In this document: piece by piece, positions 16,294 through 17,801 of the stretch
Layout of the letters: each line of letters opens with the position of its first letter
Position numbering within the stretch: the first letter of the stretch is position 1
Source of the DNA: Asticcacaulis solisilvae
GTDB taxonomy: Bacteria; Pseudomonadota; Alphaproteobacteria; Caulobacterales; Caulobacteraceae
Direction of reading: 5' to 3'
Length of the DNA: 64,000 nt
Assembly: GCF_017875235.1 (NCBI RefSeq)
Contig: NZ_JAGGMI010000003.1
Location: 1 to 64,000, forward strand
Program-made: the position numbers and the translations under genes
Notes under the pieces: generated by a model
Told to the model about the DNA's origin: nothing
Seen by the model: the letters and a program-made list of their open reading frames with translations, nothing else
Databases searched by the model: none

Positions 16294-16322
16294 TTGACTC
16301 CCGCTCATCTTCCCGGTTAAAG
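16294..16322 (+). promoter_or_regulatory. Sigma-70-type promoter of the asd leader
   Basis: TTGACT (16294-16299), a 17-nt spacer and TTAAAG (16317-16322). The predicted transcription start is 16328-16331, essentially at the A of the leader-peptide ATG, so the leader would be translated from a leaderless or near-leaderless mRNA. Confidence 0.65.
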
Positions 16323-16330
16323 GCCCGTCC

Positions 16331-16405
16331 ATGACCTTCGTCACGCGCACAACAACAACGATGAAAACCAAGGCCCAGGGGCCGGGGATAATCGCGCGCG
16401 CGTAA
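16331..16405 (+). CDS. Threonine-rich leader peptide of the asd attenuator
   Basis: 24 codons, beginning M-T-F-V-T-R-T-T-T-T-M-K-T-K and ending I-I-A-R-A. Seven of the first 13 codons are threonine, four of them consecutive, as in the thr operon leader of E. coli (thrL). Met, Lys and Ile codons, the other aspartate-family products, also occur. Transcription is predicted to begin at or next to the ATG, and no ribosome binding site is present. Leaderless translation of trpL has been described in Sinorhizobium. Downstream is an intrinsic terminator and then asd, whose product feeds threonine, methionine, isoleucine and lysine synthesis. Confidence 0.75.
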   Translation: MTFVTRTTTTMKTKAQGPGIIARA

Positions 16406-16439
16406 ACGACATCACGCTCACAGCTCAATCTCCGAAGTC

Positions 16440-16467
16440 GCCCCGTCCGTCCGGCCGGGGCTTTTTT
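16440..16467 (+). terminator. Attenuator terminator before asd
   Basis: GCCCCG (16440-16445), a 10-nt loop and CGGGGC (16456-16461), then TTTTTT. It is 35 nt beyond the leader stop and 22 nt before the asd start. The GGGGC at 16378-16382 inside the leader can pair with the left arm GCCCC instead, giving an antiterminator when the ribosome stalls at the threonine codons. Confidence 0.72.
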
Positions 16468-16489
16468 ATTGCCTGAAAGGACCCCCAAC

Positions 16490-17494
16490 ATGCACAACAA
16501 GACCGTCGCCATTGTCGGCGCCACCGGAGCCGTCGGTCGTGAATTCATCGGCTGTATCGAGCGCCGCGGCATTCCGCTGAAAGGCCTGAAGCTGCTCGCC
16601 TCGGCGCGCTCGGCTGGGCAGACCGCCACGTTTCGCGGCGAGGCACTGACGGTCGAGGAAACGACCGACGCGGCGTTCGACGGCGTCGATATCGCGCTCT
16701 TTTCCGCCGGCAGTGGCATCTCGAAGCAGTTTGCGTCCATCGCCATCAAGGCCGGAGCGGTCGTGGTCGATAACTCCTCGGCCTTCCGCGCCGATCCGGA
16801 AATCCCGCTGGTCATTCCGGAAATCAACGCTCAGGAGATCAGGAACCACAGGGGCATTATCGCCAATCCGAACTGCGCGGCGATCACGACCCTGGTGCCG
16901 CTGTGGCCGATCCATTCCGTCAATCCGGTGAAGCGCCTGATCGTCTCGACCTACCAGGCGGCGTCGGGCGGCGGCGCGGCCCTGATGGAGGAACTCGAGG
17001 AATCGACCCGCGCCTATCTCGATGGCCGCGAATACGCCCCCAACGTCGTCAAATACCCCTATGCCTTCAACCTCTTCAGCCACAATACGGCGATCGATCC
17101 GGAAACCGGCTACAACGACGAAGAAACCAAGGTGATCAAGGAGACCAGGAAGATCCTGAACGATGCGGCCATCAACGTTTCCGCCACCTGCGTGCGCGTG
17201 CCGGTCCTGCGGGCGCACTCGGTATCGATGACGTTTGAATGCGAACGGCCCATCTCGCCCGAAGAGGTCCGCGAGCTTCTGGGCCGCGCGCCTGGCGTGC
17301 GGCTGATCGACGACTGGGAAAACAACTATTTCCCCATGCCCAAGGACGCTTCGGGCCAGGACGACGTGCTGGCCGGCCGCATCCGCCGCGACCTGTCGGA
17401 CCCGTCGGGCCGCTCGATCTCGATGTTCGTCGCCGCCGACCAACTTCTTAAGGGCGCCGCGTTGAACGCGGTGCAGATCGCGGAGCTGCTGTAG
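16490..17494 (+). CDS. asd: Aspartate-semialdehyde dehydrogenase
   Basis: A 334-residue enzyme that reduces aspartyl phosphate to aspartate semialdehyde with NADPH. This is the branch point to diaminopimelate/lysine, methionine, threonine and isoleucine. The nucleotide site is G-A-T-G-A-V-G (residues 8-14), the catalytic Cys129 is in N-P-N-C, and the His243 base is in L-R-A-H-S. Length is normal for the proteobacterial family. ATG 16490 follows GAAAGGA; a TTG seven codons earlier is inside the terminator T-run and unlikely. Expression is probably controlled by the threonine attenuator directly upstream. A hairpin follows the stop codon. Confidence 0.96.
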   Translation: MHNKTVAIVGATGAVGREFIGCIERRGIPLKGLKLLASARSAGQTATFRGEALTVEETTDAAFDGVDIALFSAGSGISKQFASIAIKAGAVVVDNSSAFRADPEIPLVIPEINAQEIRNHRGIIANPNCAAITTLVPLWPIHSVNPVKRLIVSTYQAASGGGAALMEELEESTRAYLDGREYAPNVVKYPYAFNLFSHNTAIDPETGYNDEETKVIKETRKILNDAAINVSATCVRVPVLRAHSVSMTFECERPISPEEVRELLGRAPGVRLIDDWENNYFPMPKDASGQDDVLAGRIRRDLSDPSGRSISMFVAADQLLKGAALNAVQIAELL

Positions 17495-17697: not shown

Positions 17698-17801
17698 TAG
17701 AGCAATATGCCAAAAAGTGTGCAGCGGCTTTTGGCTAAATATCGCGACAAAACAAAAACTTAGATCGGTATGATGTTTCCACTTAAAATCATACCGATCT
17801 A
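17698..17801. repeat. Dispersed repeat family A, copy 3
   Basis: TAGAGCAATATGCCAAAAAG...TTTGGCTAAATATCGC followed by the linker ACAAAACAAAAACTTAG and the ATCGGTATGAT/ATCATACCGAT hairpin. A tail AAAGCATGATAGCG...CGCATCACAATCTAG (to about 17841) matches in kind the tail next to copies 4 and 6. The rest of 17530-17697 shows nothing recognisable. Confidence 0.87.

Follow-up and report, generated by a model that had tools for sequence, protein, structure and literature searches.

A near-leaderless, threonine-rich leader upstream of a second asd gene in Asticcacaulis solisilvae: a probable transcription attenuator with relatives in other alphaproteobacteria

The window analyzed herein is a 64-kb stretch of the Asticcacaulis solisilvae genome, and all features described lie on its forward strand. 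Positions 16490-17494 encode an aspartate-semialdehyde dehydrogenase (asd), identified by TIGR01296 (394.4 bits, above the cut-off of 324.2) and by the Pfam domains PF01118 and PF02774. Asd catalyzes an early step towards threonine, located at the branch point for threonine, methionine, lysine, and cell-wall diaminopimelate. The preliminary description of this DNA placed an attenuator in control of asd; the identity of the gene stands, with the correction that it is a second copy (asd2). The other asd of the same genome (G000:C4:346658-347641) is 43% identical to it, and reading by eye the 300 nt upstream of that copy revealed no similar leader.

The element preceding asd2 begins with a promoter-like sequence (16294-16322) consisting of TTGACT (16294-16299), a spacer of 17 nt, and TTAAAG (16317-16322). 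The -10-like hexamer is weak, agreeing with the consensus at only three of six positions, and a simple promoter pattern scan listed no promoter at the leader stretch. Eight nucleotides downstream of the hexamer lies the ATG of a leader ORF at 16331, and the transcript is predicted to start at or near this AUG. The ORF comprises 24 codons (16331-16405, with the TAA at 16403-16405) and encodes MTFVTRTTTTMKTKAQGPGIIARA. Seven threonines fall within its first 13 codons, namely at codons 2, 5, 7-10, and 13, whereby codons 7-10 (ACA ACA ACA ACG, 16349-16360) form the uninterrupted run of putative regulatory codons. Among the 986 short frames of the window (ATG or GTG to stop, 15-40 codons, both strands, nested starts counted), this one alone has seven or more threonines in codons 1-13, and one other frame has six. 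Forty Markov-random sequences of 64 kb contained no frame with six threonines in these codons.

Within and behind the ORF, four regions can be distinguished. Region 1 (16372-16375) forms part of a small 1:2 hairpin inside the leader ORF, GGCC-CAGG-GGCC (16372-16383, -6.8 kcal/mol). Region 2 (GGGGCCGGGGA, 16378-16388) is the 5' strand of the predicted antiterminator and begins with GGGGC (16378-16382). Region 3, UCUCCG(AAGUC)GCCCC (16429-16444), is the strand pairing with it and overlaps the 5' arm of the 3:4 stem-loop (16440-16461), which is composed of GCCCCG (16440-16445) and CGGGGC (16456-16461). The stem-loop is followed by a tract of six T (16462-16467) that ends 22 nt before the asd2 ATG and completes a putative intrinsic terminator. 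This terminator is missing from the list of a simple pattern scan of the window because its loop of 10 nt exceeds the limit of eight set in that scan. A ribosome-binding-site-like AGGA (16478-16481) precedes asd2, without the stable hairpin found in the sister clades described below. The promoter-like pair with its spacing, the 24-codon frame with four threonines in a row, the stop codon, the GC-rich stem, the T-run, and the complementarity of GGGGC to 16440-16444 had all been noted in the preliminary description, and each is confirmed. The arrangement is that of the trp/thr/his-type attenuators: a short leader ORF carries a run of codons for an end product of the pathway, an intrinsic terminator (GC stem and T6, predicted from sequence) is situated between this ORF and the structural gene, and a mutually exclusive antiterminator, conserved in relatives and exclusive in five pairs, uses the 5' arm of the terminator.

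The antiterminator had been described as GGGGC:GCCCC only. This helix (16378-16382 with 16440-16444) is present but incomplete, as it is extended by CGGGGA:UCUCCG (16383-16388 with 16429-16434). The extension helix is able to coexist with the terminator and GGGGC:GCCCC is not; hence, only five antiterminator pairs exclude the terminator in the window. The predicted energies are -14.5 kcal/mol for the full antiterminator and -11.6 kcal/mol for the terminator stem alone, or -15.8 kcal/mol with its inner pairs. A static fold of the window favors the terminator state over the antiterminator state by 6.3 kcal/mol; over 77 A-type sequences (defined below), this advantage averages 2.8 kcal/mol and ranges from -4.4 to 10.5. 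Because the terminator state is favored and only five pairs compete, antitermination would have to be kinetic, with pairing established before region 4 is made. The stability of the whole-leader fold equals that of shuffled sequences (minimum-free-energy test, z 0.10), a test that is uninformative here; support for the element comes from conservation rather than from the folding of a single sequence.

With considerable confidence, we regard the element as a transcription attenuator of the ribosome-mediated kind, with charged tRNA-Thr as its signal and the second asd gene as its target. In broad terms, this upholds the attenuator proposed in the preliminary description, with corrections. Transcription would start at or within a few nucleotides of the leader AUG; therefore, the leader would be translated as an almost leaderless message. 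When threonine is scarce, the ribosome would halt in the ACA-ACA-ACA-ACG run and cover region 1, leaving region 2 free to pair with region 3 before region 4 exists. The terminator would then be too late to form, and asd2 would be transcribed. When threonine is ample, the ribosome would continue to the UAA, region 2 would refold with region 1 while its 3' end is covered, and region 3 would pair with region 4, so that RNA polymerase stops at the U-tract. Asd2 would thus probably be switched on only when threonine is short. One step differs from the earlier proposal, in which the ribosome at the stop codon covers GGGGC. It would hardly do so, since 20 nt separate the end of GGGGC from the stop codon and a ribosome of usual footprint at the UAA would reach no further back than the 3' end of region 2. 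The 1:2 hairpin is therefore the more likely lock on GGGGC after passage of the ribosome.

Conservation was followed in asd relatives with at least 70% identity, herein called A-type (84 rows representing 82 loci, the window included), which stem mostly from Bradyrhizobium and unclassified alphaproteobacterial MAGs. Loci were sampled as the best 80 of 166 relatives, 30 of 57 matches, and 30 of 56 matches; genes fetched twice (L056/L002, L057/L003, L136/L014, L144/L022, L149/L020, and L157/L023) were kept in the row counts, and thinned alignments comprise 28 (A1), 36 (A2), 25 (A3), and 25 (A4) sequences. A leader frame rich in threonine and lysine lies upstream of asd in all 84 A-type rows, with MFTTTKRTTKTTTAFGARGGVRA and MNMTTKRTTTKTKPFGAGIARA as examples and a GTG start in two leaders. 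The threonine content of residues 2-16 is 44% in these leaders compared with 4.2% in the asd proteins, a share somewhat inflated since a script selected the most threonine-rich short frame; lysine accounts for 16% compared with 4.5%. Every one of the 84 A-type rows has at least five T within the 8 nt that follow the hairpin. The distance from the end of the best-scoring -10-like hexamer to the leader start is 7-8 nt in 77 of 83 A-type rows, and likewise in 20 of 30 and 34 of 37 rows of the sister clades B and C, all counted without a shuffle control. Hence, the conservation on which the preliminary description made its reading depend is found: the threonine-rich frame, promoter-like pair, terminator, and antiterminator pairing recur in close relatives, and further families of the class also have similar leaders upstream of asd.

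With region 1 deleted and region 4 kept unpaired in the prediction, 76 of 77 distinct A-type sequences, the window's among them, fold so that the 5' terminator arm pairs with region 2 (without a shuffle control). In the A3 alignment, 81.6% of cells of the 2:3 helix are paired, as opposed to 26-57% in slid controls, and its covariation score was reached in none of 500 shuffles. The number of A3 pairs changed on both sides is two, which is not above shuffles (2.8). A null model of synonymous codons for the 2:3 pairing was beaten at p<=0.05 in 13 of 84 A-type, 8 of 28 B-type, and 28 of 37 C-type rows; for the pairing of leader and arm in the window, it was not (p 0.109). Read from the alignments, the extension helix varies between clades in a largely complementary manner: GGGGCUGGG:CCCAGCCCC in L060, GGGGCCUCGGG:CCCGAAGCCCC with a small internal loop in L073, CUGGGGGUUG:CAACCCCCAG in L034, and GGGACGUU:AACGUCCC in L010. 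Even within Asticcacaulis, CGGGGA:UCUCCG of the window is replaced by the compensated CGGGAG:CUUCCG in L004. Swapping 2:3 strands between leaders gave a modest preference for cognate strands (-23.4 vs -21.4 kcal/mol). An equivalent 4-bp 1:2 hairpin is present in 88% of cells of 25 A-type relatives, without covariation and with one slid control at 77%.

The sister clades contain comparable leaders, exemplified by MTAVMTITITLKTTRSGGASTGTCVV and MTKAITTKTTGFGGAVSGVRKV. B-type comprises 30 rows, 27 of them from genus g7, which may be Phenylobacterium. C-type comprises 37 rows from 33 loci belonging to other Asticcacaulis, genera g22 and g3 (perhaps Caulobacter and Brevundimonas), one g7 genome, and two genomes from another Caulobacterales family. 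L007 and L009, which lack a convincing leader, contribute to the 30 B-type rows in which T-tracts and promoters were counted and were left out of the pairing, composition, and Shine-Dalgarno (SD) tests (28 rows); the leader counts do not include L019, whose asd is C-type and has no leader. In the A2 alignment, the 2:3 helix is paired in 99.4% of cells (slid controls, 38-53%) and has changes on both sides at three pairs; the 3:4 hairpin is paired in 100%. The 1:2 hairpin has 5 bp here and is formed in 95.6% of cells of 36 leaders, with one pair changed on both sides. Fewer than five T follow the 3:4 hairpin in all 30 B-type and all 37 C-type rows; in L049, a T5 is present and absorbed in a longer stem.

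Two further regions are found in these clades. Region 5 can pair with region 4 in 99.2% of A2 cells, whereby the covariation of this 4:5 helix (score 0.090) is not beyond controls, with slid versions scoring up to 0.126 and 32 of 500 shuffles as high. Alternatively, region 5 can pair with region 6, the asd SD region, in 81.2% of cells; one mismatch in this helix is almost constant, and none of its pairs has changes on both sides. In our reading of the A2 alignment, part of the 5:6 figure derives from misaligned shorter variants. SD variants keep their partners: GGAGACG faces CGCCUCC (one mismatch) or CGUUUCC, GGAAACG faces CGUUUC (L142), and CCGGAG faces CUCCGG (L034). Cognate strands are modestly preferred in swap tests of 4:5 (-15.8 vs -13.5 kcal/mol) and 5:6 (-12.6 vs -10.6 kcal/mol). 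The SD is predicted to be paired in 28 of 28 B-type and 37 of 37 C-type rows, as opposed to 34 of 82 A-type rows. Compared with shuffles, masking ranks at <=0.05 in 12 of 28 B-type, 13 of 37 C-type, and 1 of 82 A-type rows; few rows beat the shuffles because GC-rich shuffles mask the site as well. These predicted folds suggest the pattern of a translational attenuator in the sister clades, which is less well supported than the A-type switch.

How far such leaders extend was examined with covariance models. The training set of R1, 25 A-type sequences, contains none from Asticcacaulis, and the model matches the window at 16331-16469 (60.6 bits, E 6.3e-13). In its own genome, the window locus is the best match (E 4.9e-11; next 0.007). 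Class-wide, R1 has matches at E<=1e-5 in 9 of 289 sampled genomes, seven of which lie before asd, one before thrS (TIGR00418, 463.7 bits; leader MNAMRQNPSTTTTTTASGGRSCGRAR), and one (L192) before genes without a recognized link to threonine. The seven asd loci include the window itself and G579, the genome of training row L065, and thus five further loci. R2, built from 25 sister-clade leaders, has matches in 9 of 240 genomes, all nine before asd; G060 among these was in the training set, and G526 is matched by both models. The match of R2 to the window is weak, with 18.3 bits and E 0.0012 in a search of the window and the fourth rank in a search of the genome. Among the other matches of the two models in this genome, the five inspected (L167, L168, L169, L195, and L196) showed no convincing leader. 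Rfam at gathering scores gave no match in the window and in seven other loci, and at E<=10 six matches, all far below threshold and none a threonine leader. A T-box or riboswitch was rejected, as no Rfam family matches and the conserved part includes an ORF.

The distribution of asd types is uneven. Window-type asd is found in 4 of the 25 Asticcacaulis genomes searched and a different second asd (C-type, E<=1e-105) in twelve others; at the thresholds used, none of the 25 has both. At least two asd-like matches are present in 10 of the 11 genomes behind the fetched A-type loci. A maximum-likelihood tree built from 95 asd rows groups the window type of Asticcacaulis as one clade (100/99), nested in a 17-row clade (100/99) and apart from the C-type of its relatives. 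The other members of the 17-row clade are from Rhizobiales/Hyphomicrobiales or are unclassified alphaproteobacterial MAGs. From this placement, leader and asd were therefore most likely transferred together horizontally, presumably arriving in Asticcacaulis from that side. The genes flanking asd2 in the window differ from those at the other A-type loci that were compared.

With the evidence from relatives at hand, other explanations can be weighed. As lysine occurs in as many A-type leaders as threonine, the signal may not be threonine alone. An attenuator sensing several amino acids of the aspartate family, that is, threonine with lysine or threonine with isoleucine, would fit the lysine found within residues 2-16 of 84 of 84 A-type, 28 of 28 B-type, and 35 of 37 C-type leaders, the 14.5% isoleucine in the same residues of B-type leaders, and the established biochemistry by which all three derive from the pathway fed by asd. 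We regard it as a tentative and rather unlikely reading, since no residue in A-type leaders comes close to threonine in enrichment (44% vs 16% for lysine), the window leader has seven threonines against two lysines, and the relative before thrS has six threonines in a row and no lysine. A different weight would be put on the product if the terminated leader acted mainly in trans, as small RNA or peptide, with regulation of asd being secondary. For the leaderless trpL of Sinorhizobium meliloti, functional RNA (rnTrpL) and peptide (peTrpL) products are described (PMC7298713; PMC10117765), and a GCGCG stretch before the leader stop contains several invariant columns in 28 A-type sequences. Such a role as the main one is improbable, as the link to asd persists in the class-wide searches and the pairings that are conserved are of the kind used by a cis-acting switch.

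The similar leaders of clades B and C, which face a hairpin over the SD, raise the thought that the output in the window is translational as well, the switch masking the asd ribosome site. This we judge very unlikely: the window has a T6 tract and lacks an SD-masking hairpin, and an unpaired probability of the SD below 0.3 is reached in 34 of 82 A-type rows compared with 28 of 28 B-type and 37 of 37 C-type rows. Equally little credence is given to a constitutive promoter with a chance threonine-rich ORF and an ordinary terminator fine-tuning asd without any sensing. The ordinary whole-leader fold (z 0.10) and the synonymous-codon null unbeaten in the window would agree with it; against it stand the threonine-rich frame without equal in the window, its retention in A-type rows and other families of the class, and the complementary changes of the competing helices. 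The threonine-sensing transcription attenuator hence remains the preferred reading for the window.

Threonine attenuation as such is a textbook feature of the gammaproteobacterial thrABC operon. The thrL attenuator of Escherichia coli shares with the window a threonine-rich leader peptide, a competing antiterminator and intrinsic terminator, and a pathway gene downstream. It differs in that the gene in the window is a second asd, the leader there starts almost at the predicted 5' end of the transcript, and the regulatory run has threonine and no isoleucine codons. Among alphaproteobacteria, trpL of Sinorhizobium is leaderless, with the AUG at the transcript start, and its rnTrpL attenuator is likewise a leader ORF upstream of an amino-acid gene, as described in PMC7298713 and PMC10117765; compared with it, the window has threonine instead of tryptophan codons, asd instead of trpE, and a predicted leaderless start. 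The closest report found is that of SEP5 from S. meliloti, a translated ORF that carries six threonine and three lysine codons and lies in the 5'-UTR of a gene named 'aspartate dehydrogenase'; PMC10117765 calls it 'possibly a leader peptide' and reports it as conserved only in Sinorhizobium. Compared by description only, SEP5 has its threonine cluster near the 3' end, and the passages on it in PMC10117765 describe no terminator or antiterminator. In the same bacterial family as the window, the ilv leader CDS of Caulobacter is subject to transcription attenuation in front of the branched-chain operon ilvIH rather than asd, and the passages of this C. crescentus paper on leader peptides and attenuation name the trpS and ilv leaders and not asd (PMC4117421). 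The main text of a study on transcription start sites in B. japonicum (PMC4842269) contains neither 'attenuat' nor 'leader peptide', 'threonine', or 'semialdehyde'. An asd attenuator was thus not found in the open-access literature, among the matches listed and the passages of these papers considered. The preliminary description was not aware of an asd attenuator of this form in this lineage; the form is, however, not peculiar to the lineage, and SEP5 had earlier been suggested as a leader peptide of this kind (PMC10117765). The principle is classical, and what is new is the target, a second asd, together with the predicted near-leaderless start and a probable change of output across the family.

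Taken over all clades, a family of near-leaderless threonine leaders appears to control asd in many alphaproteobacteria, with the same kind of sensor having changed its output. In the Bradyrhizobium-type clade, from which the window copy would have come by horizontal transfer, the output would be transcription termination; in the Caulobacterales sister clades, it would be translation control by alternative hairpins, whereby 2:3 and 4:5 free the ribosome site and 3:4 and 5:6 mask it. We favor this broader picture only slightly. With a single kind of sensor and the same target enzyme throughout, it would allow the shift between transcriptional and translational attenuation to be compared, and a regulator traveling with its own gene between orders to be studied. 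Threonine attenuation is herein tied to asd in alphaproteobacteria that keep another asd, and therefore a testable reason for the duplicate is offered: one basal copy and one copy that would be induced by threonine shortage.

The B-type asd leader of L049, a locus of genus g7 from a clade sister to the window-like asd genes, carries a T5 run at the 3′ end of its hairpin and, judged by its sequence, may represent an intermediate between transcriptional and translational output. Some Bradyrhizobium loci (such as L100, L111, and L120) contain palindromic elements, CGGAAAAGTGG...CCGGTTTTCCG, between the terminator and asd. Within the window, a CCAAAAAGTGTGCAGCGGCTTTTGG stretch that is loosely similar to these elements is located 3′ of asd at 17700–17760.

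A leader with a Thr run, MNAMRQNPSTTTTTTASGGRSCGRAR, followed by a terminator, is also found upstream of thrS on the minus strand of L193, a locus from another alphaproteobacterial family. Compared with the family profile, the threonyl-tRNA ligase gene of this locus is missing the part that corresponds to positions 1–171. The covariance model built from 25 A-type leaders (R1) further matches L192 with an E value of 1e-6, where the frame MSNKVARAAATTMSRSGGPGERARV and a hairpin are situated upstream of neither asd nor thrS. In the genome of A. solisilvae itself, a possible leader, MLNSRAFNVAVTTTAASGGAFCRCVALS, precedes a gene of the isochorismatase family (PF00857) at L198:1501-1587 (G000:C4:318420-318554); this locus matches a covariance model weakly (E 0.1).

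Near-leaderless frames, MNKSVRKVNFNHMTRFGWAVEGVAR and MIKSRKLDRRHVTRSCRAVGGVVR, are present at L184 and L185, in genomes that provided Bradyrhizobium loci, each followed by a terminator and a small gene, the product of which presumably resembles a DUF1127 protein. The A. solisilvae genome contains a Gln-rich near-leaderless leader, MTAMTIHTQQQQTRQLPARVRLAG, at L194:1501-1575 (G000:C22:4026-4144), followed by a terminator and the gene of a 145-aa protein, for which a Pfam search gave no match. With the most Gln-rich short frame picked at each homologous locus in relatives, QQQ leaders were found upstream of seven of the 19 (L205, L206, L207, L210, L213, L214, and L215), the Gln run of L210 being the variant QQTQ. 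In a single search of an open-access library, no report of a glutamine attenuator of this kind was listed. From its sequence, the Gln-rich leader with its terminator is a candidate glutamine attenuator.
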